Assembly (NCBI RefSeq): GCF_041381155.1
Contig: NC_091142.1
Location: 43,870,747 to 43,934,746 of the forward strand
DNA from: Argopecten irradians
Lineage: Eukaryota; Mollusca; Bivalvia; Pectinida; Pectinidae
Direction of reading: 5' to 3'
DNA length: 64,000 nt
In this document: piece after piece, positions 11,370 to 34,739 of the stretch
Numbering within the stretch: the stretch's first letter is position 1
How the letters are laid out: each line of letters starts with the position of its first letter
Notes under the pieces: generated by a model
What the model was told of the DNA's origin: nothing
The model's input: the letters and a program-made list of their open reading frames with translations, nothing else
Database searches by the model: none
Position numbers and translations under genes: made by a program

Positions 11370-11426
<57 letters not shown>

Positions 11427-11440: not shown

Positions 11441-12663
11441 GTGTATGTGTGTATGTGAGTTGGTGTGAGGGGGTGTTTATGCAAATTTAACGGTAACGAA
11501 TAATTCCATTAGAAATTTAAAAACAAAGAAATAGGGAAATGATTTGTGCTTGCCGCAGTCATATTCCCCTCTTCTGAGTGTAAAAGAAGAGTTGGATACA
11601 GCTCTTTGACTGTGTGTTTGTAAATTTTATTCCTCTGGTAAATGTGGTATATAGATCTTGATTTTCTTTACTGTGATTTATCACTTATTTGGCATTATGA
11701 AGCAAAATGCCAGAGTATACAATTAATCGAAAATATTGAAGCGAATGATTGTAATGTAAGATATTTTGATTAGATTTATTCCCCTTGATTTCCGGAAGTT
11801 TATTATGATTCTTTAATTGATTAATGACTAATCAATGTGCAGGTCTGGGATATTGTAAATAGTTTCTAATTTTACAGTTACACGTAGGAAAGATATATTA
11901 GCAAATTAAAAGTTGATTACAGTTGAAATAAATAAGTATTAATTATTGAAATTCTGTATACCAGGAATAATTTACTGATTCTAAGTTAAGTAGTTCAGAA
12001 TGATTGTCAATGGGGAGCACGATGTAAGAGGCGAATCTCTGCTTCGGCAAGGTTCTGTCAGTGACCAAGCTGAATAAGTTTGGGCCCAGCTGAGTAAGTT
12101 GGGGTTCCACTGTTGCTTTCACTATTGGGTATACGTTACAGGGTACTGCAGTACAGGGCGACGTACTGACGAGTACAGGGTAACGGGGTGTCAGTTCGAT
12201 ACCAGGTGTTCAGCAACACAGGGCGACGTGTTACTTGAACAATGAGACAAGGTTTGCCAAAGCACTCGGTGCCGCGGTAAAAGGGTGACTCGGTATTGTA
12301 GTCACAGGTGTCTCGGTATAGGTGTCGTGATAATGTGTACTTTGTACACGAGGAACTGACTGTCATATTGAAGCAGCCTCTTTACTTAGACCTGTGGTAT
12401 TGAAGATACAGGGTGCTCAAGGTGATTCAGTTGTTGTATTTACCAGGTGTAAATGAATCGGATCATGGTTCGTTACACATGTGGTTATGAGTCAGGTAGA
12501 CTTTAGCCATTTATTTGTATATATTGTCGGCAGTATTTAGTTTGTTGTGTTTAACAGTGCCTGGGTCCAAGATAGAACTTGGTAACGGACCGTACTACAG
12601 TTGTAGTTGCAGCACAGAGTAGCAGCAGGCATAGTCGGTCACGCGACCGTTAAAAATATTTAC
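11441..12663. other. Intron-like region of the SRCR locus
   Basis: No domain recognised. At 12,130-12,360 there are loose repeats of an ACAGGGCGACGT-like motif; otherwise nothing stands out. Confidence 0.35.
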
Positions 12664-13361
12664 CTTCGGATGAACACCATACGCCGACATCCTCTGAGTG
12701 GCTACAGTCATTAATGCCCCAGCCATTAAAGGAAAACAGAGTGTGTCCCCTAACATTAGAGGCGTGTATGGGACGTGTGTATAACTGGGAGTACAAGTCT
12801 AAATTGTCAACATATATCGTCCCAGTACCAGATCCAAAGTATGCCCTGGGGAGTGCTTTGCCGTATCTGACAAAAATAATTCGACATGCTGTATCGTCAG
12901 CCATGATAAAGCTTTATCACATCACTAATCTTACGTATTACCTGAAGTAAGAATGTCAATAGATAAAGTGGGTCATTTTTTCTTGCGTCTACAAGCTTGA
13001 AATATTGTAGAAGTTATTTGCCACAGATCTGAATAATTTGACAGGGTTCCAATCAAATGGAACTAATTCCAATAACAGTATATTTCTGAAACAATTGGCC
13101 ACTGATTTGACTCAGTCACTTTATACTGTGAACTTTTGAATTTTCATTTCGAATGAAATTTTACAAAACATCATGTCTCGTTTGTGCATATAGATGAATT
13201 GAGTAAAGACAATAAATATACCTACTTAAGACCAAAAGTTCTACAAATAACTCTTGCTTCTTCGTCGCTGAAGTTGTCATCACAAACAGTTCCCCATGTG
13301 CCGTTTTGTAGTATTTCCAACCGCCCGGTGTAACTGCCGTGCCCATTTACTAAACGGATTT
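12664..13361 (-). CDS. SRCR domain C, two exons
   Basis: First-half exon 13,226-13,361: [21 protein letters not shown] and V-I-C-R-T-F-G; acceptor TTTTAG, donor AA|GTAGGT, ending in phase 2. Second-half exon 12,664-12,866: acceptor TTTTGTCAG, donor G|GTAAAT; it reads Y-G-K-A-L-P-R, then I-Y-V-D-N-L-D, F-N-G-W-G-I-N-D-C-S-H-S-E-D and V-G-V-W-C. The two join in frame. Where SRCR domains normally have D-x-x-C and a cysteine before the N-G-W-G block, this copy has a roughly 20-residue stretch without cysteine (about 12,755-12,820), so two expected cysteines are missing. The domain may be decaying or mis-assembled there. Confidence 0.75.
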
Positions 13362-14761
13362 CTAAAATCACAAATAAATTACCGTACTCATTATGATACT
13401 AGATTCTATGTTTTAAGAACGATTACTGACATTGAAGTTACAGTGGTACAGTTGCCAGGTACTGGCTGCCGGTCGTTGGGTGTTTTTTGTTAACGGATAC
13501 CTCGGCTTCCCTTCGTCAATAAACCTAATATATCCTTGAATTATCCTGGTTGTTAATAGGACGTTAAACTTTACTTAATCAAACTAAAAAATTGATTTTT
13601 TTAATTTAGTTGTCTTATTTCATTTGTTATCGAGATTAGTCAGTGTATGTCACATCATAAATATGATGAAAGAGTTTACTGACATTAAATGAGAACTGGA
13701 GGCATCTATTGGAAAAATACAAGGGGGATCCTGATTCAAACACAACTACAAACCCATTGCACGATCTTCAAAAAATGTTCCAATATGGGAAATGTCAAGT
13801 TATGTAGTGAGTCGGAGAGATCCAATCATTTAGAAAAGTGAAACCTTTCTTATGCATAATTCATAAACATATATATAAAAGTACACAGTTAGATTCAATA
13901 TCAGTGAAAGTTCTTTTAATCTCAAACCAAAGATTGGCTCATCCATTGTTATAATTAAACAATCACTCACTTACAACAGGACCATCAAAAGTGGTTTGTA
14001 GCTGTATAATTTGCTAATCGTAATCGATGTAAAATATATAAATTTATTAAGGCATATCATCTGAACATTCCCATTTAAAAATACAGTCACATAAATGTAA
14101 GCTCGATTCAACAAATCAACTATTTACTAACAATTCATTTTTTCGAGGTTTCATTCGAATGAGAGACTATGGTTTATGGTTCGTTTAGCGCAAAATTGCA
14201 TATCAAAGTAATATCTTATGGAAAACAAATAAATGTTTTTTTTATTATTAATTATGGTCATGCCCTCTTTCTAAGATTACTAAAACTGTGGTATAAGACA
14301 AGCACTCGGTATTTAAAGCAGGACAGGAAAAGCGCTTAATCAAAAACATTTTCAAAAGTTTCCCATTTTTAATTGCGTTGGTAATACTGATGACAATCAT
14401 AATTATATTGAAATGATGACATTACTATTCCTTCTGACATTATCTACTTTTTAGTAATTGATTATTAGGTTGATAAACGGACAACTATATTGCTTTTATT
14501 TGGCTTAAGAGTAATGAATATAAGAGACCGAATTGCGGTTGCTACGGTAACCTGATAAAAATGCATTATTTTTTATATCGTTTTAATCTGACGTGTATAG
14601 ATAAATATGGGGTTAGTAAGCGAACGTGTTGATTCAAACTGGTGAAAAATTACCTTTAGGCAAAATATTGGATTTTCGTGAACTCCGCTAAAACTTCTTG
14701 GTAGTTAAGGAGTTAAGTAAAAATGGCATGTTTCAATATCTGGAATGAAATAAGTATTTAC
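13362..14761. other. Intron between SRCR domains B and C
   Basis: AT-rich; no exon, RNA or repeat recognised. Confidence 0.4.
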
Positions 14762-15524
<763 letters not shown>

Positions 15525-15902
15525 TTAGCTAAATAATAAGTACTATACCGTCCATGGAGTCATGGGGTTAGCTATTCAGGACAGAATCACCTAACAGTTT
15601 TATCACCCATGTGTAACAAAGGGTGCGACCTGTGAAGTATGATGAAAAATAATCACAGGCATACGTTATCACAAAGAAAACTGCAAATATCCCTCTCTCT
15701 GGGGCTAGCATTCGGAAGTTATTCTCCTAAATGGGAGACTATGATGTTGTTTAGAATGTACATCTTGGTATAAAAAAGTCTCTTTAATAAACAACTAATC
15801 TTTTGTAGTTTATTTACTATTCTTATCAACATTCTCATATATTCATGTAATGGATTTAACCTGAACTATAAAAGTCACCTGTAAATCATACGAACCACAT
15901 AC

Positions 15903-16462
15903 CTAGGGGGTGGGGGGGGGGGGGGGGGGGGGCGAACGTGCCACGTCACCCCTGCGTCCTCATTTATGCCACAGTTATTGGTCCCCCCAACTTAGATGAT
16001 GACAGTTAGAAATGTCAGTCACGTGTACCCCAGTGTAACAGTTGACATTATCTAACCATATCTGACCACTTTCCTTTCGCCGAAATGAGCACTGCTGAAC
16101 GCGGTACCACCCTTTCTGTCAATGCAGTAGTTCGAGATTTTACAGTTAAACATATCTATGCATAAAAAAAGTTAGATGGTTTGGTCCGTACAATGTATTT
16201 TTTATGGACTTTCTACCGGTAATTTGTAACTCAATGACAGCCTGATTAAATTATTACTCAGTCTTAGAAGCTACTGAAGATATTTCGTAAAATGTGGTTT
16301 TACACATATAGGTTTACCTAAAATTGAGCATCCTACATATCACTGACGCGTCATCGTCTGTCCAAAAGTCGTCACACACAGTTCCCCAAGTACCGTTGTA
16401 CAACACCTCGACTCTCCCTCGGTAAGCTGTGCTGTCAGTGCCTCGGAGGCGGACGCTGGTGG
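15903..16462 (-). pseudogene. SRCR domain A, two exons, second half frameshifted
   Basis: First-half exon 16,318-16,462: [32 protein letters not shown]; acceptor CTGTCCAG, donor AG|GTAAAC, phase 2. Second-half exon about 15,903-16,115: starts after GCATTGACAG and reads G-G-T-A-F, then in another frame G-Q-I-W-L-D-N-V-N-C and D-I-S-N-C-H-H-L-S-W-G, then a third frame N-N-C-G-I-N-E-D-A-G. Two frameshifts are required, one in a run of six G. The probable donor lies beside a run of 21 C on the coding strand, so this exon may be poorly assembled and not truly broken. Confidence 0.7.
15912..15932. repeat. 21-base poly-G run
   Basis: Uninterrupted G run on the plus strand at the probable 3' end of an SRCR exon. 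Such runs are prone to length error in sequencing. Confidence 0.95.
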
Positions 16463-17897
16463 CTGGACAGTAAATAAACATGCTGTACAACGGGAACATT
16501 TAGCGTAGGGTTTTAGTGTAGTGATCTATTAGTGCTAAATTAGATTATTCCATAAAAAAGGATGCTTAATAAAGTCTTGCTTACTCATTTTAAATTATGT
16601 AAAACAAACATAACAAACGTTACATCATGATATATAATGATCTATTTTTAGTACAAGAAAAAGAATGTTTCCAATAGTTCCATTAAGTAAAATAAAAACA
16701 TTATTAAATATGTGTGTTTATGTCGTATTTACAACTACACGGAGTGAAACAGGGTTTTCTGTACATCTTGGTACACACTACAATCGAAGACTGGACTATT
16801 ACTTTGATGGCGCTAAACAAATATTTTGATATAAAGGAATTAGTTAATGATTTTGTTATCAAGCTTATATCAGTTTAATGTAAATATTATATATTTCTTA
16901 TTATCAGAATTGAGAAAAGATATGGTTTCTTTCTGATATTATAGGTGATCTTAAAGTGTGAATTTTGTTTGTTTGTTTGATTAATAAATTGTCCTATTAA
17001 TAGCCAGTATGGAGAATTTTTAAGTTAAGGGATTCTTTAAATTTTAAGGAATGTTCATAATGTTCATGAATTTGTGGCTACAGATTGTTTCAGATAGTTA
17101 CTTTACTCACTACATTCATATGTAGACCAAACTGTTTCTATAGACGACACGCTTCAGTGACTGGGTAGTTCTAGATTCTATTAGATGTATAGGTATTTGA
17201 TATTAGATGAAGACCTGTTACAGATATTTTGCTGACTACACACAAGCTAGCGTATCCCTACCTGTGGACCCAGTGTGTGTAGGGTCCAAGCTGGCTAGAT
17301 AAATAATTTTAGCCTGAGAGGATTTCTCCTTCTACATTCCTGAGTCGCCAGTCTAAAAGATAAAATCAATGTTTTATCCCTATCCAACTTTATTCAGCCT
17401 GAAGCAGATTTTCTCTCATTAACATACCTATTCCTGACATGGGGCGGGGCCGCCCGACCCTTTCTTGTGGGCCCAGTGGCTCGTTGGTCTATACAAAATA
17501 ATAAAAAAACAGTGTCCATGGACCACGACTGTCCACTGAATGGCCCAGAGCTCCCATCTTCATTCTTCTCAACATGCAGCAAGACTGTGAAACAACAACG
17601 ACTAACTCCGGAGGATCAGGTCTCGGACCGTCACTGTTAAAACAGCTGGCTTTCATTAGGTTATGTAGTGATGGGAAATGATATTGTCTTCAAAGCCCAC
17701 AAGGTTTCATCTCATAAAATGTCTATATTATCACTATAAGTCTCACATTGAAGACCTAGAGGTTTTGGTTTTGAGTTTGTTATATGAAATGATAATCAAG
17801 ATAACAAAATCCCATCATAAATCTGCTTGTGTTGTCTAATATATACCATTAGTTATGCGGTAATTCGTAAAACAAAATGGTTTAATTTGTGTAACAG
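16463..17897. other. Spacer between SRCR and THOC5-like loci
   Basis: The SRCR gene (minus) and the THOC5-like tail (plus) diverge from this interval. No signal-peptide exon, earlier THOC5 exon or promoter could be identified. The open frame at 17,394-17,582 (minus) has no family resemblance. Confidence 0.4.
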
Positions 17898-18091
17898 AGC
17901 GTGGATCCATACAAGTCACCAGGGATTACCTCCCCTTGTTTCCTGCCAAAATAGTTGCTCGCCTGATATCATGGAAGCGATCAACATATGAGGATTTCAG
18001 TGTGCTTCCTCACGCACGCTCTGCCATCACTGCCCGGCCTGGCTGGGGAGTCAGATCTCTACTTTACAGCTGTCATGGAGAGATCTTCGGG
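17898..18091 (+). pseudogene. THOC5: THOC5-like exon n-3
   Basis: THOC5 is a subunit of the nuclear THO/TREX complex that couples transcription to mRNA export. This exon reads I-Q-V-T-R-D-Y and L-F-P-A-K-I-V-A-R-L-I-S-W, closely matching the C-terminal part of animal THOC5. After R-S-A-I-T-A a one-base insertion in CCCGG shifts the frame; in the other frame it continues G-L-A-G-E-S-D-L-Y-F-T-A-V-M-E-R-S-S, again THOC5-like. The acceptor is GTGTAACAG. Two donors in tandem (18,092 and 18,135) follow; the second, TCTTCTG|GTGAGT, has the phase that joins the next exon. No earlier THOC5 exon was found upstream, so this could be a partial gene copy. Confidence 0.75.
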
Positions 18092-18159
18092 GTGAGTCTA
18101 TTCTCTTTTACCCCATTCATGGAGAGATCTTCTGGTGAGTCTGTTCTCTTTTACCCCAT
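18073..18159 (+). repeat. Tandem duplication of an exon end plus donor
   Basis: A unit of about 44 bp, covering the last coding bases (TCATGGAGAGATCTTC), the GTGAGT donor and the start of the intron, occurs twice: 18,073-18,116 and 18,117-18,159. The copies differ by a few bases. Confidence 0.9.
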
Positions 18160-18542: not shown

Positions 18543-18660
18543 CCAAGATGACAGTACAGGTGGTGCTAACAGCTAACTATCCAGAGGTAGTGCCCGTGGT
18601 TTGTTGTTAGTGTTACAGTGGCAGACAAATAGGACAGCCCTGAATGACTCTCATATACAG
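18543..18660 (+). pseudogene. THOC5: THOC5-like exon n-2
   Basis: The exon follows the acceptor CCTTTTCAG and reads A-K-M-T-V-Q-V-V-L-T-A-N-Y-P-E-V-V-P-V, then after a 2-nt insertion or 1-nt deletion L-L-V-L-Q-W-Q-T-N-R-T-A-L-N-D-S-H-I-Q, ending at ATACAG|GTAAGA. This matches the THOC5 segment between the LFPAK block and the last helical block. Without the indel the frame stops at TTAG (18,607-18,610). The exon ends in phase 0, as the next one requires. Confidence 0.75.
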
Positions 18661-19204: not shown

Positions 19205-20232
19205 ATGCTTTAGTATATAACAACATTTGTGTATCCAGAGGTTTGGCGATATATTGAGTGTTGACAAGAATGATAACAACATTTGTGTATCCAGAGGTTT
19301 AGACATATATTGAGAGTTGACAAGAATGATAACAACATTTGTGTATCCAGAGGTTTAGATATATATTGAGTGTTGACATGAATGATGAAACAACATTGTG
19401 TATCCAGAGGTTTAGACATATATTGAGTGTTGACAAGAATGATAACAACATTTGTGTATCCAGAGGTTTAGACATATATTGAATGTTGACAAGAATGATA
19501 AGAACAATTTGTGTATCCAGAGGTTTAGACATATATTGAGTGTTGACAAGAATGATAACAACATTTGTGTATCAGAGGTTTGGCGATATATTGAGTGTTG
19601 ACAAGAATGATAACAACATTTGTGTATCAGAGGTTTGGCGATATATTGAGTGTTGACAAGAATGATAACAACATTTGTGTATCAGAGGTTTGGCGATATA
19701 TTGAGTGTTGACAAGAATGATAACAACATTTGTGTATCAGAGGTTTGGCGATATATTGAGTGTTGACAAGAATGATAAACAACATTTGTGTGTATCCAGA
19801 GGTTTGGCCATAAATTGAGTGTTGACAAGAATGATAACAACATTTGTGTATCCAGAGGTTTAGACATATATTGAGTGTTGACAAGAATGATAATAACATT
19901 TGTGTATCCAGAGGTTTGGCCATAAATTGAGTGTTGACAAGAATGATAATAACATTTGTGTATCCAGAGGTTTAGACATATATTGAGTGTTGACAAGAAT
20001 GATAACAACATTTGTGTATCCAGAGGTTTTGGCCATAAATTGAGAGTTGACAAGAATGATAATAACATTTGTGTATCCAGAGTTTATCCATATATTGAGT
20101 GTTGACAAGAATGATAACAACATTTGTGTATCCAGAGGTTTAGACATATATTGAATGTTAACAAGAATGATAACAACATTTGTGTATCCAGAGTTTTAGA
20201 TATATATTGAGTGTTTGACAAGAATGATATTG
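19205..20232. repeat. Tandem array, unit about 56-57 bp
   Basis: About 18 copies of a unit containing AACATTTGTGTATCCAGAGG, then TTTAGACATATATTGAGTG, then TTGACAAGAATGAT. Some units lack one C of TATCCAG. It lies in the same THOC5-like intron. Minus-strand reading frames through it are repeat artefacts. Confidence 0.95.
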
Positions 20233-21241: not shown

Positions 21242-21579
21242 TCACATTTTCTTTTTCTCCCACATCCAAAAGAAAAAGTAAAGATCATAGCCTAAACAGA
21301 AGCATTTTCACTGCGACATGAGCATGGTTCCATCGTCTGCACGTTAGTATTGATGAAGTCATCGACAATGCACCCCACAGTCACACCGCATGAAGTCATG
21401 ATGTCATGTATTTGTCTTTTGGGTTCAAAAGGTTAGCGTGTGCAATCTGTCATACCCTAGGGGTTGACAGAGAAATCTCCCACAGCTAAAACCGGTGACA
21501 AATCACTGAATGGTGGGAGAATCTATAAGGCTGCACTACCTTGTGGCTGACGTTCTCTTAACTTCAAATTTATTTTCAG

Positions 21580-21770
21580 GCAATGGAAGAAGAGGTGAAC
21601 TTGCATTATCAGGAACTTATGAAAGAAAAGTCACATGACCAGATTCTGTCCAATCAAATGCAGCGTTTGATGATGTGTTTTGATATCTATCTGGAGACCG
21701 AGGCTCATAACACAGAAAGTGAGGGTCCGGTGGAGATCTCCAAGGAAAAGGTGTTTACCAGGGTCACCAG
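21580..21770 (+). CDS. THOC5: THOC5-like penultimate exon
   Basis: After the acceptor TATTTTCAG this 191-nt exon is fully open: A-M-E-E-E-V-N-L-H-Y-Q-E-L, then L-S-N-Q-M-Q-R-L-M-M, I-Y-L-E-T-E, S-E-G-P-V-E-I-S-K-E-K-V-F and T-R-V-T-R. The order and spacing match the C-terminal helical block of THOC5, whose hallmark is the Y-L-E-T-E segment. It ends in phase 2 at CCAG|GTATGT, the phase needed by the last exon. Its last ~57 coding bases and the donor are the seed of the tandem array that follows. Unlike the two preceding exons it shows no frameshift. Confidence 0.85.
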
Positions 21771-22510
21771 GTATGTATATATCATATAACACAGGAAGTG
21801 AGGGTCCGTCAGAGATCTCCAAGGAGAAGGTGTTTACCAGGGTAACGAGGTATGTATATATCATATAACACAGAAAGTGAGGGTCCGGTGGAGATCTCCA
21901 AGGAGAAGGTGTTAACCAGGGTCATCAGGTATGTATATATCATATAACACAGGAAGTGAGGGTCACCAGGGTAACGAGGTATGTATATATCCTATACACA
22001 GAAAGTGAGGGTCACCAGGGTAACGAGGTATGTATATATCATAATACACAGAAAGTGAGGGTCACAAGGGTAACGAGGTATGTATATATCCTATACACAG
22101 AAAGTGAGGGTCACCAGGGTAACGAGGTATGTATATATCATATACACAGAAAGTGAGGGTCACCAGGGTAACGAGGTATATATATATCATAATAACAAAA
22201 AGTAAGGGTCACCAGGGTAACGAGGTATGTATATATCCTATACACAGAAAGTGAGGGTCACCAGGGTAACGAGGTATGTATATATCATAATACACAGAAA
22301 GTAAGGGTCACCAGGGTAACGAGGTATGTATATATCCTATACACAGAAAGTTAGGGTTACCAGGGTAACGAGGTATGTATATATCATAATACACAGAAAG
22401 TGAGGGTCACAAGGGTAACGAGGTATGTATATATCATATATATAGCACAGAAAGTGAGGGTCTCCGCGGTAACGAGGTATGTATATATCATATACACAGA
22501 ACGTGAGGGT
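21712..22510 (+). repeat. Array of exon end plus 5' splice site, about 14 donors
   Basis: The exon end and its donor are repeated in tandem. The first two intronic copies keep about 80 bp, including the coding block GAGATCTCCAAGG; the others are shortened to 49-50 bp: CACAGAAAGTGAGGGTCACC, then AGGGTAACGAG|GTATGTATAT. About 14 donor-like sites occur from 21,771 to 22,480; 13 read GTATGT and one GTATAT. Most units also contain CACAG before the repeated block, so each resembles a tiny exon with its own acceptor and donor. Confidence 0.9.
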
Positions 22511-22689
22511 CTTTTGAAGATTAGTGATCATCACCAGGGTATCCAAGTGCCAGTTTCACAAACATTCCTTCATTTAATATTCTTTATTGGAAAGCATTAC
22601 AGAAGCAAAATTTCTTTTTTTTCTGGGACCAGATAGGTTCATTTCATGAGATTAAATGGAATGTGTCGGAGTAGACTTTACACTCTACA

Positions 22690-23905
22690 TGATTTTGCCC
22701 TTTATGTTACAGAGGTCCAAACTGTACCAAATCCTTCATGATTTGTCCTTTATGTTACAGAGGTCCAAAACGTACCAAACCTTACATGATTTGTCCTTTA
22801 TGTTACAGAGGTCCAAAACATACCAAACCTTACATGATTTGCCCTTTATGTTACAAGCGAACAAATCGTACCAAATCCTTCATGATTTGTCCTTCATGTT
22901 ACAGAGGTCCAAAACGTACCAAACCTTACATGATTTGTCCTTTATGTTACAGAGGTCCAAAACATACCAAACCTTACATGATTTGCCCTTTATGTTACAG
23001 GCGAACAAACCGTACCAAATCAATCCTTCATGATTTGTCCTTCATGTTACAGGGATCCAAACTGTACCAAACCTTAAAGATTTGTCCTTTATATTACAGG
23101 GGTCCAAACCGTACCAAACCCTTCATGTTTTGTCCTTTATGTTACAGTGGTCAAAACCGTACCAAACCTTACATGATTTGTCCTTTATATTACAGGGGTC
23201 CAAATCGTACCAAACCCTTCATGTTTTGTCCTTTGTGTTACAGGGGTCCAAACCGTACCAAGCCTTACATGTTTTGTCCTTTATGTTACAGGGGTCCAAA
23301 CCGTACCAAGCCTTACATGTTTTGTCCTTTATGTTACAGGGGTCCAAACTGTACCAAACCCTTAATGTGTTTTGTCCTTTGTGTTACAGGGTCCAAACCG
23401 TACCAAACCCTTCATGTTTTGTCCTTTGTGTTACAGGGGTCCAAACCGTACCAAGCCTTACATGTTTTGTCCTTATATGTTACAGGGGTCCAAACCGTAC
23501 CAAGCCTTACATGTTTTGTCCTTTATGTTACAGGGGTCCAAACCGTATTAAACCCTTCATGTTTTGTCCTTTGTGTTACAGGGGTCCAAACCGTACCAAG
23601 CCTTACATGTTTTGTCCTTTATGTTACAGGGGTCCAAATCGTACCAAGCCTTACATGTTTTGTCCTTTATGTTACAGGGGTCCCAAACCGTATTAAACCC
23701 TTCATGTTTTGTCCTTTGTGTTACAGGGGTCCAAACCGTACCAAGCCTTACATGTTTTGTCCTTTATGTTACAGGGGTCCAAACCGTACCAAACCCTTCA
23801 TGTTTTGTCCTTTATATTACAGGGGTCCAAACCGTACCAAACCTTACATGTTTTGTCCTTTATGTTACAGGGGTCCAAACCGTACTAAGCCTTACATGTT
23901 TTGTC
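22690..23905 (+). repeat. Array of 3' splice site plus exon start, about 25 units
   Basis: The unit is about 48 bp: a pyrimidine-rich tract (TTTGTCCTTTATGTTACAG) followed by exon-like sequence (GGGTCCAAACCGTACCAAAC, then CTTACATG). About 25 units are present; at 24 of them the tract ends in AG. Only the last unit continues into the real terminal exon. Because most units are a multiple of three, the terminal frame is open from about 22,712 to 23,934, encoding roughly 16-residue repeats of the type R-G-P-N-R-T-K-P-Y-M-F-C-P-L-C-Y. Confidence 0.95.
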
Positions 23906-23934
23906 CTGAGGTGGGAATCTTTACACATCGGTGA
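23871..23934 (+). CDS. THOC5: THOC5-like terminal exon
   Basis: After GTTACAG the exon reads, with the phase-2 carry-over, R-G-P-N-R-T-K-P-Y-M-F-C-P-E-V-G-I-F-T-H-R and stop at 23,932-23,934. Animal THOC5 proteins end with the same kind of R-G-P-x-R-x-K-P-(F/Y) ... G-(F/I)-F-x-H-R tail, so this is the natural C-terminus. Polyadenylation signal candidates (AATAAA) lie at about 24,043 and 24,199. Use of an upstream acceptor in the preceding array would lengthen the protein in frame by multiples of about 16 residues. Confidence 0.85.
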
Positions 23935-24387
23935 GATAGTCGGCGACATCCGCTCTTGATAAAAAGACCAGACATCTTGTGTTCAGTGACGGCTTCATCC
24001 AAGAAAATGCTGCTCAAGAGTACTGTACTGTGAATTTGGTTAATAAAGGCAAACTAAGGACAAGACATTTATTTTAAAACTGACTTACACTTTCTGATTT
24101 TTTTTTTTTTTTTTTTTTTGTTCTGAGAGGGATCAGAGAAGATTGTTGTGAATGTCAGAATCCTATTATTGTCTTGTTGTCACAGATGGACATGCTGGTA
24201 ATAAAGTAAATAACAAGTACGTTATTATTTTGTTGGTTTTCTGTTCCCGGGCAGCTCCTTCAGTGTTTTAATGTTATATAGTGGCTGTATTGTTAGGTGT
24301 CTCTCCTCTGTTATCTGTAAAGGAAATATCTGGAAACCTTTGATTATTTTATAGCTTATCTGTCAAAAGGACAAGAACTTCTACCAA

Positions 24388-24866
24388 ACTGGTCCAGAGA
24401 CCGTATACCAAACTGGTCCAGAGAACTTATACCAAACTGGTCCAAAGAACTTATACCAAACTGGTCCAGAGAACTTATACCAAACTGGTCCAGAGACCTT
24501 ATACCAAACTGTCCAGAGAACTTATACCAAACTGGTCCAGAGAACTTATACCAAACTGGTCCAGAGACCTTATACCAAACTGGTCCAGAGACCTTATACC
24601 AAACTGGTCCAGAGAACTTATACCAAACTGGTCCAGAGAACTTATATCAAACGGGTCCAGAGACCTTATACCAAACTGGTCCAGAGACCTTATACCAAAC
24701 TGGTCCAGAGAACTTATATCAAACGGGTCCAGAGACCTTATACCAAACTGGTCCAGAGACCTTATACCAATTTGGTCCAGAGACCTTATACCAAACTGGT
24801 CCAGAGAACTTCTACCAAACTGGTCCAGAGAACTTCTACCAAACTGGTCCAGAGACCTTAGTTTGG
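24388..24866. repeat. 24-bp tandem array 3' of the THOC5-like gene
   Basis: About 20 copies of CCAGAGAACTTATACCAAAC plus TGGT, with ACCTT/AACTT variation and a few point changes. All plus frames and at least one minus frame stay open only because the unit length is a multiple of three. Confidence 0.95.
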
Positions 24867-26030
24867 ACCTGTAGTACGATGGCATAAGAGTCTACCAGTT
24901 ACAAAAAAATGACATTTACCTCCTGTCAAGATCAGATAGGGTCAAATAGGCTAAAATCTTAAAATTACTTCTTGCCAATAACTAAGAGACTAGAGACCTG
25001 ATGTAAGACAATTGTGTTTTAGGATGAAGGGCTATTATCGAATGAATAAACTTTACCTTTAATCAAGGTCATAGAAATCTCAATGTCATTTTTGTTGATA
25101 ACTAAGGGGCCTTGAGCCATGATATTTGGCCTGTATCATGCAGATACCAGAGCTAACAAGTTTGTTAATATACATGAACTTTATTCAAGGTTACAGAGAG
25201 ATCCAATAGGCTAAAATCAACAACTGTTTGCCCATGAACGTAGAGACCAGATATTGATCGTGTACTAGAAACGAATATGCATACCCAACCTACTATACCT
25301 CTGGGCCGGACGACACCATTATCATTCTATACATGTAAGTCTATAACATGGAGCTGCTCTATTGTAGCCAGTACGTCATGTACGTGCTCAAATGAATGGC
25401 TACAAAGTTTGTTCAAATAGCCTTTACATTTTTCCATTTTAATACATGCACTAAATCTTTACTAGTAAATAATTCCTAGGCCTATAGCCATGATATTGAC
25501 CGATCGCCAGGTGTAATATAGCCACGCCTCGTGCTCCCAAACACACGTGTTTCTGCACACACTATACAAAATACAAAGTCACGTGCGGTTTGATTGACAG
25601 CTGGCGATCCGTCAATTGGGCCTTTACTAGTAACATGCTGGGATGTGAGCTACCATGTCTAATGGAATGAATGACATTGACCTTCACTCAAGGTCACAAT
25701 GATCAACTAGGATACAATCTTGCAACAACTTCTTGTCAATGACTAAAAGACTAACAGTATAAAAAAAGTACAATATCGGGCCGCTAAAATGCATGGATTA
25801 ATAAAAGGTTTAGACATTTGTTTAAAATGACCTTGACCTTCATTGAAAGTCACAGGTTGGTAAATCCCCCCGCTAACCGCACCTAACCTTTTAATTTTAC
25901 TCCCAATATTTCACCTGTCCATAGCATGATGGGATAAGTTGCTACGTTTTATCACATAATCCGCCTGATACATGTATCTAGTGATTGTCACTCGTGTAAT
26001 GTGACCTTAACCATTTATATAACGATCCCA
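24867..26030. repeat. Degenerate ~180-bp repeats with AGGTCA motifs
   Basis: Diverged units share blocks such as CAAGGTCACAGAGATC, TAGGCTAAAATC, TTGCCAATAACTAAGAGAC and ATGATATTGGCCTG. They resemble the sequences at 50.9-51.3 and 61.7-62.1 kb. The motif TCAAGGTCA occurs at 25,063 and 25,688. No gene seen. Confidence 0.6.
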
Positions 26031-27804
26031 TGACAAACAATAGATTAACGTAAAAAAAAAAAACACGACGTGACGTCAGGATTTCGAGGATGGTGGCCAA
26101 CGCCAGAATTTCGCAATATATATTGTAGTTCAGATTCTTTGAGATGTAGGTTTTCATACAACTTATGTGAACAAATGTATCTTACAAGATGTAAATATGT
26201 GTTTATTGGATTGATTAATTTTATGCAACTCGTTTCGAAGTTTTAATTTTTGATTGCTTGGCTCCAAAAATGAAAGCTGCTAAGACTTGTTTCATAAAAT
26301 CGTATACGAGATGAACACACATTTTAAAGTTGTATTTCTGGTAATTTTCACTGTAACGATATGTCGCTTAAACATTTGATACTTGAACATGATATTTTAA
26401 CTTAATGATTAAGCTCGCCAAAAGCATATGTCGGCCTATAAGAGAGCCGAAATCTAGAGATAATATATTCCTGGTTTTGAATACAGCGCCTTCAATCACC
26501 GCCATGTTCAGTGACTGCGGGTTTTGTCGGAATTCCGAATCGTATCACGTGACTTACGTCCACACGTCCTGCACGTGGTGATCCAGGTAACTAGCGTAAG
26601 CGCACATGTGTTTGTTTACGTTTTCCTTCTGGCTAATATGAGCAAATCGTGCTGGTATATGTCCACAGAGCGAATATTTGAAACATCTAATTCACACATT
26701 ACCGTAATTCAATTTTGTGTGTATCAAATACATTGTAATGTGCAAGCATTATTTTCTTTGTAGATCCAGTCTGCTGAGGTCGACCACATGTTTTGTTTAC
26801 GAAAAAAAAATTGTTGACATTTGGTTTCACAACCCTCGTGTTACTTCGAGATTGTCGTGACGATGTTCGGAAGAGTTCGGAATGATTCGGCATCTTTCGA
26901 GCTTATTTTTCACGTGTACACGTTAAAACGATTTTTTACTTCTATAATTAAAAATACTTCCAGTGCTGCAACTTTATAAAAAGTGGTAAAAGTAGAAAGT
27001 TTAAACCTCGGACAGACGGAGAAAAATGTGTATAACACTTAAAAAGTTTTCACTATGACAAAAAGAGCGAAAGTGATAGACCATACAACTTTAACTATCC
27101 TATATATATCTATCAACTTTGGTTCTCTCTATGGACTTGCAAGATTTGCTTAAGAAATCAATGTTTTCTTCCAGGAAAGTAAGAGTTCTCTTCTTAAATC
27201 TGAATATATGTTCACTAGAACGACTTTCACAATTTTCATTAGGCCAGAGACATTATATATAGGGTTTTGGAATGTCTATTATTGAGAGTGTTCGTATGAG
27301 TTGAAGATATTAATTTAAGTGACGTAAAATTTTGTAAATCGTGAGCTTTTAAAATTTATTTCATATGGTGGGCATTATAATTCGAATATAATCGTACGTT
27401 TTCCCAGAGAGTAAGGATCTTTCTGAAACTTTATAATGAGGTTTTTCTTGTGTCTCATTGCGCCGATGGAATTTGCAAACCAATTTGAAAATTACTGTTC
27501 CCACAAAGCTCTGAAGTGACATGTATTCTTTTTCAGATGTTATATCTTGATCCCTGTCCTTCGCTGTTCAGATTTCACTTTGACACTGATAGAAAATCAT
27601 GCTAATTACTTACTTTAATTTATCTTCTGCAACCGGTGCAATACTCTGTGATATACAATAATGTCACGTTGTTGAGCACGTTTCAATAGTAATAAATAAA
27701 ACAGAGTATAGCAACGAAAACAAATTGTAAAATACAATGGTATCTATGTTCACTTCTCTATCTGTTGAGTGTCCAACTAGTAATTAAGATATTCATATTT
27801 CGTT
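26031..27804. other. Non-coding region with a dispersed repeat fragment
   Basis: The segment 26,440-26,535 (TATATTCCTGGTTTTGAATA, then CCATGTTCAGTGACT) matches 31,497-31,568. Open frames at 26,524-26,763 and 26,699-26,893 have no recognisable domain. Nothing else identified. Confidence 0.45.
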
Positions 27805-29610
27805 GGTTTGTCCTTTAGTTGACGACCTCCTATGTACCTGTAATAAAAGCTGTAAGGTTGTCCTTTAGTTGACGACTTCCTATGTACCTGTAATAAAAGC
27901 TGTAAGGTTATCCTTTAGTTGACGACTTCCTATGTGTCTGTAATAAAAGCTGTAAGCATGTCCTTTAGTTGACGACCTCCTATGTACCTGTAATAAAAGC
28001 TGTAAGGTTGTCCTTTAGTTGACGACCTCCTATGTGTCTGTAATAAAAGCTGTAAGGTTGTCCTTTAGTTGCCGACCTCCTATGTGTCTGTAATAAAAGC
28101 TGTAAGGTTGTCCTTTAGTTGACGACCTCCTATGTGTCTGTAATAAAAGCTGTAAGTTTGTCCTTTAGTTGACGACCTCCTATGTGTCTGTAATAAAAGC
28201 TGTAAGGTTGTCCTTTAGTTGACGACTTCCTATGTGCCTGTAATAAAAGCTGTAAGGTTGTCCTTTAGTTGACGACCTCCTATGTACCTGTAATAAAAGC
28301 TGTAAGGTTGTCCTTTAGTTGACGACCTCCTATGTGTCTGTAATAAAAGCTGTAAGGTTGTCCTTTAGTTGACGACCTCCTATGTGTCTGTAATAAAAGC
28401 TGTAAGGTTGTCCTTTAGTTGACGACCTCCTATGTGCCTGTAATAAAAGCTGTAAGGTTGTCCTTTAGTTTACGACTTCCTATGTGTCTGTAATAAAAGC
28501 TGTAAGGTTGTCCTTTAGTTGACGACCTCCTATGTGTCTGTAATAAAAGCTGTAAGGTTGTCCTTTAGTTGACGACTTCCTATGTGCCTGTAATAAAAGC
28601 TGTAAGGTTGTCCTTTAGTTGACGACCTCCTATGTACCTGTAATAAAAGCTGTAAGGTTGTCCTTTAGTTGACGACCTCCTATGTGCCTGTAATAAAAGC
28701 TGTAAGGTTGTCCTTTAGTTGACGACCTCCTATGTGTCTGTAATAAAAGCTGTAAGCATGTCCTTTAGTAAACGACCTCCTATGTACCTGTAATAAAAGC
28801 TGTAAGCATGTCCTTTAGTTGACGACCTCCTATGTACCTGTAATAAAAGCTGTAAGGCTGTCCTTTAGTTGACGACTTCCTATGTGTCTGTAATAAAAGC
28901 TGTAAGGTTGTCCTTTAGTTGACGACTTCCTATGTGTCTGTAATAAAAGCTGTAAGGTTGTCCTTTAGTTGACGACCTCCTATGTGCCTGTAATAAAAGC
29001 TGTAAGGTTGTCCTTTAGTTGACGACCTCCTATGTGTCTGTAATAAAAGCTGTAAGGTTGTCCTTTTGTTGACGACCTCCTATGTGCCTGTAATAAAAGC
29101 TGTAAGGTTGTCCTTTAGTTGACGACCTCCAATGTGCCTGTAATAAAAGCTGTAAGGTTGTCCTTTAGTTGACGACCTCCTATGTGTCTGTAATAAAAGC
29201 TGTAAGGTTGTCCTTTAGTTGACGACCTCCTATGTGCCTGTAATAAAAGCTGTAAGGTTGTCCTTTAGTTGACGACCTCCTATGTGCCTGTAATAAAAGC
29301 TGTAAGGTTGTCCTTTAGTTGACGACCTCCTATGTGTCTGTAATAAAAGCTGTAAGGTTGTCCTTTAGTTGACGACCTCCTATGTGCCTGTAATAAAAGC
29401 TGTAAGGTTGTCCTTTAGTTGACGACCTCCTATGTGTCTGTAATAAAAGCTGTAAGCATGTCCTTTAGTTGACGACCTCCTATGTGCCTGTAATAAAAGC
29501 TGTAAGGTTGTCCTTTAGTTGACGACCTCCTATGTGTCTGTAATAAAAGCTGTAAGGTTGTCCTTTAGTTGACGACCTTCTATGTGCCTGTAATAAAAGC
29601 TGTAAGGTTG
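27805..29610. repeat. 50-bp tandem array, 36 units
   Basis: Highly regular units: TGTCCTTTAGTTGACGACCT, then CCTATGTGTCTG, then TAATAAAAGCTGTAAGG. Variation is confined to a few positions (TGTGCC/TGTACC/TGTGTC; CCTCC/CTTCC; TAAGGTT/TAAGCAT). Every unit carries AATAAA on the plus strand. There are no spacers between units, so it is not a CRISPR array. Confidence 0.97.
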
Positions 29611-30188
29611 TCGTGTGTCCTTGTCCTTTAATAGGTCGGCTTCTAGCTTCCCTTTTGCTCAGTCGGTAGAAGGGCAAACCAGTCGTCTCACTCCTTCTAT
29701 GCTACGTGAAGGAGCAGAAACTACCACTTTTATAGACTATGGTGTGTCTCGTTTGGCCAGGGGATAAAATCCAAAAAATTCCTCACAGGTGCGAACGCTC
29801 AAATCAAGACCAAAAGTGTGGTTGTATTCATGGATGATAAAAGTCAACTAGGAAGATTTACAAGTTCCAAAATTTAGTCACGCATTTGGGGCAGCGACTG
29901 CAATTTTAACGCCCAACGTATACCTGGACATGTAGTTAAACCTTTAAAATTCCGCGCTTTGTTACACATGAAAATAACTTCCGAAAACCGCGAAAATACC
30001 GAATGATAGACCATGTTAAAGAGATTGAAAAATAAACACTTAACAAATGTGTTAGTATGCTAGTATATACAAGTACGTATTCTAATTTAATAACAATTAA
30101 GGAATTTGACAGAATGCATGTAAACCTATATACACATACAGTTCAGAGTCTGCTTTTGACAAATGATCCACCGGACGTTTTGAGTACT
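29611..30188. other. Spacer 3' of the intronless gene
   Basis: A tRNA A-box-like segment (GCTCAGTCGGTAGA, 29,658-29,671) suggests a SINE fragment, but no clear B-box was found. The rest is AT-rich without features. Confidence 0.3.
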
Positions 30189-31031
30189 TTATTTTTTGCC
30201 CTCAGTGTTAAACGTGTCACTGAATCTGACAGAGTGTAGGAGTTTCTCCTTACTGCCGTTTCGTCTCTCCTTACAGCCGTCTGTCTGACCATCGTCTATC
30301 TCCTCGTCCTCGATATTCTGTAGCTTCCTCTGAATTTTCCTCATTGATTTCTTCTCTGTGTAAGACACACGTTTGAACTCCCGCGGGCCCTGGTACGAGT
30401 CCTCCCAGACTGTTGGTAGGGAGTGCGAACTATCGATCTCCCGGGGTAGGGCTTCCTTGCTGTTAGACATTTGGGCGGGGAAAGCCTCCGTGTACTTGAT
30501 GGGCATGGAGGCTGTTACCCCGAGGGCCTGTGAGCCCGTCCCCTGGGACTGAGAACCAACACCCGCTGTACTGATGGGCTGTATTGCTGTATTGGCTACG
30601 ATCACACCATATGAACTTGAAGTCCGTATTTTACTATACCGCTGTTTTTGTCCCGCCGAGTCCAGTGAACGTTCTTCATTATCCTCTTGGAACTCGGAGG
30701 GAAACTTGCCCGTGTCCGAATCTTGCCCATCCAATTCCGATTGGAAATTATACAGAGGATGGTCAGGGAAAAGCCTATCCGACGTATTGGAACCTAATGA
30801 GATTTCAAGCGCCATTTTTGCTACAGCGCGCGCAGTGTGCGTGAGACTCTCAGCAACCTGTTTGACAGACGCCGCTTCACACATGGCTCGTTCGGCCAGG
30901 GCCATGGCATGCCGAGCCTTAAGGTCTGCTTCATGTGCCTGGACACGTGCGTAGTGCGCGAGCGAGCTGACCTGTAAGGCCTCTTTAAACAAATCTGATT
31001 TGGCCGTGCATTCCTCGTCCGCATCAGCCAT
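30189..31031 (-). CDS. Hypothetical 280-residue intronless protein
   Basis: A single open frame of 280 codons from ATG (31,031-31,029) to TAA. I chose this ATG because its context (A at -3, G at +4) is favourable; the frame extends 11 codons further but only from a GTG. I do not recognise the family. Residues 1-80 are Ala- and Leu-rich with many Glu/Lys/His, probably helical (M-A-D-A-D-E-E-C, then A-H-Y-A-R-V-Q-A-H-E-A-D-L-K-A-R). The middle (about 95-220) is Ser/Gln/Gly-rich and likely disordered. The C-terminal part (about 225-265) is basic and acidic, with K-K-S-M-R-K-I-Q-R-K-L. No signal peptide or membrane segment. The stop codon is embedded in AATAAA. Intactness in a window full of broken frames argues that it is real. 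Confidence 0.6.
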   Translation of the reverse strand: MADADEECTAKSDLFKEALQVSSLAHYARVQAHEADLKARHAMALAERAMCEAASVKQVAESLTHTARAVAKMALEISLGSNTSDRLFPDHPLYNFQSELDGQDSDTGKFPSEFQEDNEERSLDSAGQKQRYSKIRTSSSYGVIVANTAIQPISTAGVGSQSQGTGSQALGVTASMPIKYTEAFPAQMSNSKEALPREIDSSHSLPTVWEDSYQGPREFKRVSYTEKKSMRKIQRKLQNIEDEEIDDGQTDGCKERRNGSKEKLLHSVRFSDTFNTEGKK

Positions 31032-31076
31032 GCTTAGTAACCAGACTCTCGACAAGATCGTCACTATGACCTCTTA

Positions 31077-31101
31077 TGACGTCACAATGATGTTGACGTC
31101 A
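31077..31101. promoter_or_regulatory. Two CRE sites upstream of the intronless gene
   Basis: Perfect TGACGTCA palindromes at 31,077-31,084 and 31,094-31,101 lie 46 and 63 bp upstream of the ATG at 31,031. This octamer is the binding site of CREB/ATF bZIP factors. The 17-bp spacing and closeness to the start suggest a proximal promoter element; no TATA box is apparent. Confidence 0.6.
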
Positions 31102-31570
31102 TTTAATTATTCTCGTCATACAACCGATTTTGTTGCAAATATCTTTCTAAAATTAGAAACTTTAGTGATTCTTTAGTTATATAACTTACCCGAACAACTA
31201 GAAAATGGACAAAGGCAGTATGATAAACCTGATGATAGTGGCCGCAACTGGTAGGAGAGTACAGTGCGTGTATAAGGCGATAATAACCACCACACGCAAT
31301 AGGGGGGATGCAAGACAAAAATAATAAAGAAAATAACAGAAATGAAACCTCATTGTTAAACGTTTTCTGCATTCGGCAGGTATAATAGCTTTCTCATGAA
31401 TTCAACATAGGCATTTAAACTACTATACAAGTCACAGCACGAAAAACTATTACTTATATTTGGAACGACAACAAATCGGAAAGAGTCTGCATAAGTCGGC
31501 CGATATCTAGGTATCATATATTCCTGGTTTTGAATAAAGCCTTCAATCACCATGTTCAGTGACTTCGGGT
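31102..31570. other. Upstream region of the intronless gene
   Basis: No gene recognised. Its right part (31,497-31,568) is a copy of the dispersed fragment at 26,440-26,535 and abuts the truncated foldback element. Confidence 0.4.
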
Positions 31571-32227
31571 TTTGTAGAAACTCCATTTAAACATCGTGTA
31601 GCTCACTTACTTTAACCGTCACCGCCATGTTCATTTGTTTTTCGGAACGCTTCTCGAGTTTACCTACAAGCACAACATTACATAATTTGCATAATGTAGT
31701 CACGATATGTAAAGTCGAGAAGCGTTCCGAGAGAAAAATGAACATAGCGGTGACGGTTAAAGTAAGTGAGCTACACGATGTTTAAATGGAGTTTCTACAA
31801 AGTACGGGTCATGACACCTCCAAAGGAGGTTGTGGATGAACACAGTTATGGGTACTGTTTACCACCACAAGCGTAGATTTTGTGGTTTTGGCTTGGTTTT
31901 TGAGGTGCCCATTAGAGCCGAGGAGACGACATTTCGACCGGACAGAGAAATGTCTACCTAGCATATTTTTCGCAAATTTCTCGATTCATCAAGCCATAAC
32001 TTCGTCAATACTTGGCCAATTTTGTTCATCAAGCACTCAATGGAAAGATAAATTATTTCTCTTTAAGGTAAGATATCCGTCAATGTTGTATATAACCCAT
32101 TTATTAAAATAATCATGGTTTTAAAAAAATAGATCCGTTTTTTCTCGACCGCCGAGTTCATACCCTTGATACTATAATATATATATGTATACTGTTAGTT
32201 TAAAAAAAATCGTGCCAGGTCCCTGTG
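31571..32227 (+). mobile_element. Foldback element, truncated copy
   Basis: The right arm (to ...CAGGTCCCTGTG at 32,227) matches the complete copy at 32,541-33,623. The left arm is cut to about 110 bp (31,571-31,680). The centre is the ATAATTTGCATAAT palindrome at about 31,685. Confidence 0.85.
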
Positions 32228-32540
32228 ATTTTAATGGACCGATCTGATGAAATACGCTCTCTTCCATCTAGAAATTTGAAAGCTCGAGATATAATTAAAC
32301 AAATACATGTAGAAATTATACATTAAGTGTCAATCTCTAGTAAACATTAATTCCATTTTTTTTTCTTTCTGAAAACATTACCGTAGTAAACCGAACTATA
32401 TCTGATGAAATTACTACGCTCTCTTCCATCTCGAGATGTAAAATCTCGAGTTGCCTCCCTTTAAACGTCATTGCTATTAGGCCTAACATTCATGCACTGT
32501 ATAGCACTTGCTGTTCGACTTGCTCTAGCTGTGTTTAAAC
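32228..32540 (+). repeat. Host repeat segment interrupted by the foldback element
   Basis: This segment, continuing at 33,632-33,780, parallels 42,670-43,140: shared blocks include TGATGAAATTACTACGCTC, CACTTGCTGTTCGACTTGCT, AAGTATCTGGCCA and GCAAAGCAAAGTGATACAC. In the other copy the sequence is continuous across GTTTAAAC. Confidence 0.8.
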
Positions 32541-33623
32541 CACAGGGACCTGGCACGATTTTTTTTGAAACTAACAGTATACATATATATATATTATAGT
32601 ATCAAGGGTATGAACTCGGCGGTCTAGAAAAACTGACCTATTTATTTAAAACCGTGATTATTTTAATAAATGGGTTCTATACAACATTGACGGATATCTT
32701 ACCTTAAAGAAAAATAATTTATGTTTCCATTGAGTGCTTGATGAATAAAATTGGCCAAGTATTGACGAAGTTATAGCTTGATGAATCAGGAAATTTACGT
32801 CAAATATGCTAGGTAGACATTTCCCTGTCCGGTCGAAATGTCGTCTCGGCTCTAATGGGTACCTCAAAAACCAAGCCAAAATCACAAAATCTACGCTTGT
32901 GGTGGTAAACAGTACCCATAACTGTATTCATCCACAATCTCCTTTGGAGGTGTCATGACCCTTACTTTGTTGAAACCCCATTTAAACATCGTGTAGCTCA
33001 CTTACTTTAACCGTGACCGCCATGTTCATTTGTTTTTTCGGAACGCTTCTCGAGTTTACCCACAAGCACAACACTACATAATTTGCATAATGTAGTCACG
33101 ATATGTAAAGTCGAGGAGCGTTCCGAGAGAAAAATGAACATGGCGGTGACGGTTAAAGTAAGTGAGCTACACGATGTTTAAATGGAGTTTCTACAAAGTA
33201 CGGGTCACGACACCTCCAAAGGAGATTGCGGATGAACACAGTTATGGGTACTGTTTACAACCACAAGCGTAGATTTTGTGATTTTGGCTTGGTTTTTGAG
33301 GTACCCATTAGAGCCGAGACGACATTTCGACCGGACAGGGAAATGTCTACCTAGCATATTTGACGTAAATTTCCTGATTCATCAAGCCATAACTTCGTCA
33401 ATACTTGGCCAATTTTGTTCATCAAGCACTCAATGGAAAGATAAATTATTTCTCTTTAAGGTAAGATATCCGTCAATGTTGTATAGAACCAATTTATTAA
33501 AATAATCACGGTTTTAAACAAATAGGTCCGTTTTTTTTCGACCGCCGAGTTCATCCCCTTGATACTATAATATATATATATATGTATACTATTGGTTAAA
33601 AATTTTCGTGCCAGGTCCCTGTG
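32541..33623. mobile_element. Complete palindromic foldback transposon with 8-bp TSD
   Basis: The element is 1,083 bp and nearly a perfect inverted repeat about position 33,082; ends are CACAGGGACCTGGCACGA and its complement. It is flanked by GTTTAAAC at 32,533-32,540 and 33,624-33,631. The uninterrupted paralogous site at 42,999-43,006 has a single GTTTAAAC in matching flanks, which fixes both the ends and the 8-bp duplication. It encodes no transposase, so it is non-autonomous. An 8-bp duplication fits hAT- or P-type transposases; the family is not determined. Confidence 0.9.
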
Positions 33624-33631
33624 GTTTAAAC

Positions 33632-34739
33632 AAACATACACAACATATTTGTTACAATGTTTCATTACATCAAAGGATTGTTGTAACCAAATTATGACTT
33701 GTTATTTGACAAAAGTATCTGGCCATGATTTATAAGTCAAAACTCGGCAAAGCAAAGTGATACACTAGCAGCCATGTTAGTCTTTCTAACAAGGAAATCA
33801 ATACATAATCCGGAAATCGCAATATTTCTGTTGTTATCAAATGGATATTGCTAGTCATTAAACTTATTTTCTTTTCTTTTAAAGAGACATTGATGAAATT
33901 GATAATTTCAGTAATAATTTTGTGTATATAGAATCGATTAATTACTTACATGTATAAAACGAAAATGGCGCTCATATTTTTACCAGATTTATTAGTTTAA
34001 TAAATCTACTTATTTCAGAAATAAGATATTCTAATATTTAAAATATATTTCAGTCATTTCAGGAAAAAACCTTCAACTTATGGTGGTTGAATCAACTTTA
34101 ATTATAATAAAATGATACATATCTTTTGTTTAACTCCAAAATTCAACATATATACAATGTACAACATGTTTACTAAATTTGATATAAATGATAAACCAAT
34201 TTCTTTATTCCTTTGTTTGAGTCCTTCATTCACAGCATCTATGAGTGGCCTTGGCACTTTGATCTGGGAAAACGACGTGAACTGTGCTTACAAAATAATG
34301 ATATAACAATTGATATCTACCCGCAAGGGAGCTAGCTCTGTACTGTACTTCAATGAAATACATTATCATTTTAAATGTACTATGACCTTTCGATATTACC
34401 ACCAAGTGCTATTAGGAAGTGACCGAAAATGAATGTCTGTTATCTATTAATGTATTATTTGTTCTCAATCATATGTATTTTACTATTGTTACTTGAAATG
34501 CGAATAAAACTTCAAATAATGTAAACGTATCAATACTTCAACATTTTCTTGTATCAATGTTTTGACTTTCACATAGTCGCAATTTTAAAAATATCTGAAA
34601 TGGGATAAAATAATAAATAGATTTTATCCATATATGACAATTGTATCTCTGATAAAAATATACACATGATTTTTTATGAAAATACAGTGTTACACAAATA
34701 ATATGTGTTTTTGTAATGACTACTGTACTGTTCAACTAT
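33632..34739. other. AT-rich non-coding sequence
   Basis: The first about 150 bp belong to the interrupted host repeat (paralogue at 43,007-43,140). The remainder shows no recognisable gene. Confidence 0.4.

Follow-up and report, generated by a model that had tools for sequence, protein, structure and literature searches.

Splice sites that have become part of a minisatellite have been described before. In the human interferon-induced gene 6-16 (IFI6), a minisatellite reportedly contains multiple splice donors, as stated in the title of the 1995 paper of Turri, Cuin and Porter. By that title, it resembles the arrays described here in providing many splice sites in a transcript, but the sites are donors present in the transcript, whereas the scallop array described by the first analysis of this locus offers predicted acceptors.

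The closest described systems are the "mirages" of amphioxus, found in Adh3, in the globin genes BflGb6 and BflGb9, and in TnC and PGBD5 (PMC3087553, PMC3902484). In the available portions of these papers, mirages are presented as minisatellite-like tandem copies of an intron-exon boundary, either 5′ or 3′, which vary in length and are reported to have no effect on regular splicing (PMC3087553, PMC3902484). In human segmental duplications, variable internal tandem repeats occur at exon-intron boundaries, and cryptic sites may form introns; according to the available part of the text, these repeats have an average of 4 copies of 30-bp units and are found in recent primate paralogs (PMC2812944). 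Intron gain via duplicated AG/GT proto-splice sites was put forward by Rogers (as described in the available part of PMC3087553), and an abalone gene contains a minisatellite in intron 3, whose position relative to the junctions is not stated in the accessible text (PMC6905558). We recognized no description of mirages in molluscs in the literature searched.

The arrays found at the THOC5 gene of the scallop Argopecten irradians share with mirages, as these appear in the excerpts available, units that span an exon-intron boundary (here the 48-bp acceptor unit and the 79/49-bp donor unit) and the presence of AG or GT signals in many of the units (24 of 25 acceptor units, plus 14 donors). They differ in scale, as the same excerpts give 6 and 3 units for two BflGb6 haplotypes, whereas scallop THOC5 has ~70 acceptor and ~118 donor units, and in spread, as both boundaries of one intron and five junctions of one gene are amplified. 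The proto-splice model, as far as the source describes it, is similar in that duplication of a splice site can spare the protein, since the extra copy is spliced out; it yields a new intron, however, whereas in the scallop no new intron was seen and the copies lengthen an existing one. The preliminary description of the locus knew of no case of this kind. Given the anatomy shared with mirages, with the 6-16 minisatellite (by its title) and with the human boundary repeats, so far as the accessible parts of these sources go, the arrays are better placed within a known kind, at an unusual scale. We therefore consider the THOC5 arrays to be of the same kind as the amphioxus mirages, and new in scale and spread.

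THOC5 in the analysed window

The window, i.e. the whole stretch of 64,000 nucleotides that was analysed (C9:43870747-43934746 of an 846-Mb assembly), contains the 3′ part of THOC5 on the plus strand. This copy is referred to as B, and a second THOC5 copy, located elsewhere in the assembly, as A. The features of copy B are as follows (source in brackets):

17898..18091, plus strand: THOC5 exon, approximately residues 509-573 (tblastn and frameshift-tolerant alignment; ends read by eye)
18073..18159, plus strand: 43-bp duplication, two copies, of the donor of exon 17898..18091 (TRF, sequence)
18543..18660, plus strand: THOC5 exon, approximately residues 574-611 (tblastn; ends read by eye)
19217..20229, plus strand: 56-bp array of 18 copies within an intron, no junction seen inside (TRF)
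21580..21770, plus strand: penultimate THOC5 exon, P. maximus residues 612-675 (tblastn with Pecten maximus THOC5, 94% identity)
21707..22511, plus strand: donor-side array, 79-bp and then 49-bp units (TRF)
22512..22685, plus strand: intron stretch separating the two arrays (blastn, 88% identity to copy A)
22686..23907, plus strand: acceptor-side array, 48 bp, 25.3 copies (TRF)
23871..23934, plus strand: last THOC5 exon, consisting of one base, GPNRTKPYMFCPEVGIFTHR and the stop (tblastn)
24042..24047, plus strand: AATAAA, a possible polyadenylation signal (sequence; second AATAAA at 24200)

The original assignment to THOC5 was borne out, as matches to both the human and the P. maximus protein identify the last exon as genuine THOC5. 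The last two exons together match human THOC5 600-683 (E 2e-18), and the last exon, its split codon included, is identical to P. maximus THOC5 675-695 at 21 of 21 residues. The peptide joined from the exons matched human THOC5 in the PDB (7znl_E, 499-683; E 3e-40), and the closest of the seven proteins retrieved was P. maximus THOC5 (89% identity).

A complete THOC5 was not found at this locus, since residues 1-433 of the P. maximus protein had no credible match in the window (tblastn, best E 2.9, plus a Pfam search of the plus strand at 8000-17950), and residues 454-499 gave a poor match at 17459-17629 (tblastn, E 0.029). The exon at 17898..18091 requires a change of frame relative to P. maximus THOC5 (tblastn, and the 12 best pieces, score 80 or more, of the frameshift-tolerant alignment). 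More generally, the exons at 17.4-18.6 kb show frame changes, yet high residue identity, with respect to this protein, which would point to sequence errors or early decay.

Several other elements were recognized in the window. Upstream of the THOC5 exons, the minus strand carries a scavenger receptor cysteine-rich exon (15141-15524; PF00530, E 7.6e-9), the frame of which looks irregular by eye. The segment at 33000-33624 is a repeat, which dominated a genome search made with 33000-35500; dozens of copies were found among the 40 of 3949 candidates scored, many of them as inverted pairs overlapping by ~160 bases. A 233-bp tandem repeat of three copies (51953-52653), with TTTTCAG ... ACAG/GTAAGT in its unit, resembles a tandemly copied exon. 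At 54766-57233, a reverse transcriptase is followed by a tyrosine-recombinase-like frame (Pfam RVT_1, Phage_int_SAM_1); the element resembles those of the DIRS or Ngaro type.

Amplification of both boundaries of the last intron

TRF analysis confirmed the 48-bp array that had been noticed before the last exon. It contains 24 exact TTACAG acceptors (22712-23870), one additional unit having TTACAA, in agreement with the earlier count of 24 AG acceptors in about 25 units. The 48-bp unit is composed of 37 exon-derived bases, GGGTCCAAACCGTACCAAACCTTACATGTTTTGTCCT, which come from the last THOC5 exon, and 11 intron-end bases, TTATGTTACAG, which end in TTACAG. The unit is thus the splice junction itself together with the start of the exon, as first described; however, most of the pyrimidine tract proved to be exon-derived, and the length is not fixed at 48 bp, but varies between 47 and 52 bases (47, 49, 50 and 52 besides 48). 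A 25-base junction pattern (3 mismatches or fewer) gave 22 matches in the window and none in 100 shuffled sequences. By eye, groups of three units appear to recur, from which the array seems to have grown in blocks of about 144 bp.

The donor side of the same intron, which like the 43-bp donor duplication is absent from the preliminary description, is amplified as well. The penultimate exon ends in CAG followed by a GTATGT donor, and in each unit of the donor-side array the end of this exon is joined to a donor, either GTATGT or GTATAT, resulting in 14 donors at 21771-22477.

The second THOC5 copy

A genome-wide scan with a 33-base junction pattern revealed 19 occurrences, two of them in the window and the other 17 at C9:42650217-42653227. 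The latter mark copy A, which lies 1.24 Mb from copy B and in which the last two THOC5 exons are surrounded by the arrays seen in B; the two genomic copies are either alleles or paralogs. The acceptor array of A has ~70 units (wraparound alignment), with 62 exact TTACAG, versus ~25 units in B, and the 56-bp intron units number ~95 versus 18. The terminal acceptor of A is TTAAAG, which places a TAA in the THOC5 frame. Within 21529-31184, unique sequence of A could be aligned to B in eight pieces, with identities of 79-96%; the next 22 kb of A, past this region, showed no further synteny.

Two further arrays lie 3′ of THOC5 in the window. The 24-bp array at 24374-24860 has 20 copies, and 18 in copy A; the 50-bp array at 27808-29612 has 36, and copy A has about one unit (~56 bases) at this place.

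It is conceivable, with odds somewhat below even, that the THOC5 copy in the window is a partial, broken duplicate or a haplotig, with an array devoid of any role, and that the other copy is functional, which would be compatible with arrays of the mirage type. The lack of a credible match to residues 1-433 and the frame changes at 17.4-18.6 kb agree with this possibility, as does the presence of residues 1-250 in copy A. On the other hand, the final two exons at the window locus are intact, most of residues 251-608 are missing from copy A as assembled, and residues ~251-504 were absent from the whole assembly at E<=1e-3. These gaps in copy A and in the assembly make an incomplete assembly inside the arrays just as likely, and the absence of the middle exons from both copies speaks for assembly trouble.

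The array, or its length, could also be an assembly artefact. The frame changes in nearby exons would fit this explanation, as would the frame-breaking unit lengths, located partly at homopolymers, and the array mosaics that abut directly in copy A (33501/33502, copy-A local coordinates). However, the array is present at two loci with different variants, and kinase exons carry comparable junction arrays (see below); we regard an artefact as most improbable. Exact unit counts, and the indels that break the frame within arrays, should nonetheless be taken as provisional.

Predicted products of the amplified sites

Choice among the acceptors had been proposed to give a protein ladder, in which every unit lengthens the THOC5 C-terminus by about 16 residues. 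Part of the anatomy is consistent with this proposal: the 24 AG acceptors have nearly equal pyrimidine tracts, and the terminal frame is open through the array, as originally observed (413 codons before the stop, 22693-23931). Of the 24 window acceptors, 16 lead from donor 1 to the THOC5 C-terminus and 8 are out of frame, the number in frame being a consequence of unit lengths of 47-52 bases instead of a constant 48. A clean +16 series is formed by the last four window acceptors only (21, 37, 53 and 69 residues after TRVT). Seven acceptors at 23389-23677, as well as the one at 23052, lead to early stops, and 12 of the first 13 (all but 23052) give 198-407 residues, passing a stretch in another frame. 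The combination of donor 1 with the last acceptor restores the conserved P. maximus THOC5 C-terminus, with the last 21 residues identical; donor 1 alone gives the THOC5 ending, the other 13 donors leading to TRYVYII and a stop.

None of the 62 upstream TTACAG acceptors of copy A reaches the THOC5 C-terminus, which is attained from the last site alone (1 of 63 tested). If the base is correct, the in-frame TAA of this copy makes a C-terminal ladder impossible there, and a protein made from an internal acceptor would carry a different C-terminus.

The long open frame counts for little as evidence, since the consensus unit is stop-free in all three frames and no significant constraint was detected on the unit tree. 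In copy B, pN/pS was lowest in the THOC5 frame (0.47 versus 1.22 and 1.46). A star-phylogeny simulation gave P=0.014 for the frame staying open, but this was rejected as a sign of selection, as shared variants are counted there as independent. On a tree of 65 units (exactly 48-base units only, 18 of B and 47 of A), stops were present in 5 units against a simulated mean of 10.5 (P=0.37). Neutral tree simulation likewise gave no significant pN/pS in the THOC5 frame, either for A and B together (0.67, P=0.25) or for the single copies (B 0.45, P=0.10; A 0.85, P=0.42). A search with the array translation (E<=10, proteins near query length) retrieved seven proteins; each has the THOC5 Pfam domain, and the alignments cover 5-9% of the query. 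No repeat was seen in the three that were read (P0001, P0002 and P0007).

The tree units were cut at the acceptor motif, and conservation of the hexamer was therefore measured separately, by wraparound alignment. Among the unit hexamers, TTACAG ranked 1/48 in B and 2/48 in A; the units of A and B are not independent, and the two ranks are not two tests. The donor hexamers of four donor arrays were not specially conserved (ranks 8/49, 31/49, 28/66 and 25/51). Conservation of TTACAG is the strongest result for some use of the acceptors, and together with the low pN/pS of B it could be taken to favour the protein ladder. Set against this are the 8 out-of-frame acceptors, the result for copy A, the non-significant constraint on the tree and the small part of the query aligned in the protein search, and we regard the ladder as very unlikely.

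The redundant acceptors might instead be kept for a role, either in slowing or buffering the splicing of the last intron or in tuning THOC5 output by replacement of the C-terminus. Such a role, which we think unlikely though less so than the ladder, would account for the hexamer conservation and for the over-representation of junctions among arrays, and in copy A the upstream CAG acceptors are better by consensus than the terminal AAG. It agrees poorly with the very different copy numbers of A and B and with donor sites that show no comparable conservation, and the TTACAG ranks of A and B are not independent.

Other amplified junctions in THOC5

Including the 43-bp duplication, five THOC5 junctions are amplified, namely four donors and one acceptor. 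In copy A, the donor after residue 250 forms a 66-bp array of ~43 units (wraparound alignment), with 39 exact CAGGTAGG. A 51-bp donor array of the same copy has ~118 units (wraparound alignment) over 27314-33501, and 97 exact TAGGTAAGG were found over 25400-33510 (both in copy-A local coordinates). The 51-bp unit encodes KSIKSSVTEI before its donor, identical to THOC5 residues 310-319; this ten-residue match is insignificant alone (E 2.9), but its place in the gene lies between the exons that encode residues 250 and 609.

Under random seeding of eight THOC5 arrays, the probability that at least five fall on junctions was 0.0004-0.002, for a set chosen post hoc and a collapsed model of 6.9 kb with 20 junctions, in which the 51-bp exon is unplaced and parts of the gene are missing. 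Among the 11 junction unit lengths (66, 51, 79, 48 and 43 bp here, and 46, 95, 39, 36, 85 and 50 bp at kinase exons), multiples of three were not significantly enriched (5/11, P=0.29).

A 42-bp array of copy A (C9:42633502-42642819, loci L009-L010, ~220 copies) was rejected as a junction array, because a similar stretch of the window (near 17150-17195), seemingly present about once, lies outside the exons found, as judged by eye. The 42-bp unit resembles AQWLGGLQFLD, sharing 8 of its 11 residues (E 0.14-2.9).

Junction arrays at other genes

We analyzed 40 kinase exons out of at least 142 Pkinase (PF00069) matches (128 of 895 candidates scored), each with 400 bp of either flank. These were short, internal-looking matches, hand-picked and not random, with boundaries taken from the profile match and not from annotation. 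TRF arrays (period 15 or more) were present at 15 of the 40; a boundary-overlapping array or an exon-end duplicate was flagged in 8, and reading of the sequences left 6 clear junction repeats:

L038: acceptor array, 46 bp, 9.1 copies
L074: acceptor array, 85 bp, 2.5 copies
L076: acceptor array, 50 bp, 2.1 copies
L050: donor array, 95 bp, 2.3 copies
L059: donor array, 39 bp, 10.7 copies
L073: donor array, 36 bp, 11.9 copies

A seventh locus (L046) is a diverged two-copy acceptor, and another candidate (L067) was dropped as intronic. When arrays near kinase exons were merged (period 20 or more), 6 of 15 spanned a junction versus 1.07 expected (P=0.0003). Array sequence (period 15 or more) makes up 10.7% of the kinase-exon flanks, and 36093 of 130000 bases of 13 other 10-kb pieces lie in arrays (period 10 or more, at least 150 bp), figures that are only roughly comparable as the cut-offs differ. 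The idea that array units are generally enriched in donor motifs was not upheld, with 2 of 19 arrays outside THOC5 at p<0.05 versus shuffles (KS p=0.29) in a test that made no use of exon positions. The junction pattern had no match in the viral contigs scanned.

One of the other loci (L026, C11:8500001-8510000) contains a 46-bp array of ~197 copies at 941-10000, with TCG/GTAAGT on the minus strand. It is a candidate donor array.

Splice junctions may be preferred sites of minisatellite birth or retention throughout the genome of this scallop lineage, with many exons flanked by arrays, a generalization to which we give slightly less than an even chance. Its basis is the 6 of 40 kinase exons together with L046, the 6 of 15 merged arrays and the 5 of 8 THOC5 arrays. 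The result for donor motifs in the 19 arrays counts against it in its widest form.

Probable origin and tolerance of the arrays

The reading that we favour, with a probability of about 0.7, is that the THOC5 arrays are minisatellites of the mirage type, i.e. the outcome of tolerated growth at splice junctions, with the exon-adjacent sites being used. Two separate tandem duplications may have founded them, one spanning the 3′ junction of the final THOC5 exon and one the 5′ junction of the penultimate exon; both would then have expanded through slippage or unequal exchange, in a genome where minisatellites are very abundant. Growth of this kind could be tolerated if the first donor and the last acceptor still gave the normal protein and the extra units stayed intronic. 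In favour of this reading are the conserved C-terminus encoded by donor 1 with the last acceptor, the differing copy numbers of A and B, the pN/pS values close to neutral simulation, the junction unit lengths not enriched in multiples of three, and the reported lack of effect of amphioxus mirages on regular splicing.

A terminal exon is defined together with its polyadenylation signal, and the last acceptor could be picked in this way. The internal pyrimidine tracts are nearly all equal to the terminal one (12-13 of 16 pyrimidines; exceptions: one with 11 and one with 9, copy A), so the choice of acceptor would hardly come from local strength. We infer that terminal-exon definition directs splicing to the exon-adjacent sites and that the additional units are nearly neutral.

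Three observations stand against mirage-type growth as a full account: (i) conservation of TTACAG exceeds what a purely neutral array need show, (ii) placement on junctions is above that expected from uniform seeding, both in THOC5 and at the kinase exons, and chance is not the whole story, and (iii) the terminal TTAAAG of copy A is weaker by consensus than the 62 TTACAG that precede it and, as the pyrimidine tracts are nearly equal, local sequence gives no reason for the last site to be preferred.

If the exon-adjacent site is always chosen, these arrays would be natural test pieces for splice-site selection, with which factors such as terminal-exon definition, the distance of the polyadenylation site and the order of transcription could be probed. 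If it is not always chosen, the genes would provide a natural series of length-polymorphic isoforms. Should junctions indeed be preferred sites of minisatellites in this lineage, the splicing machinery would have to single out the exon-adjacent site from as many as a hundred similar ones, and the arrays would constantly supply material for new introns and isoforms. Their frequency in a mollusc would show that boundary minisatellites are no oddity of amphioxus, and would offer a living source for intron gain by tandem duplication.
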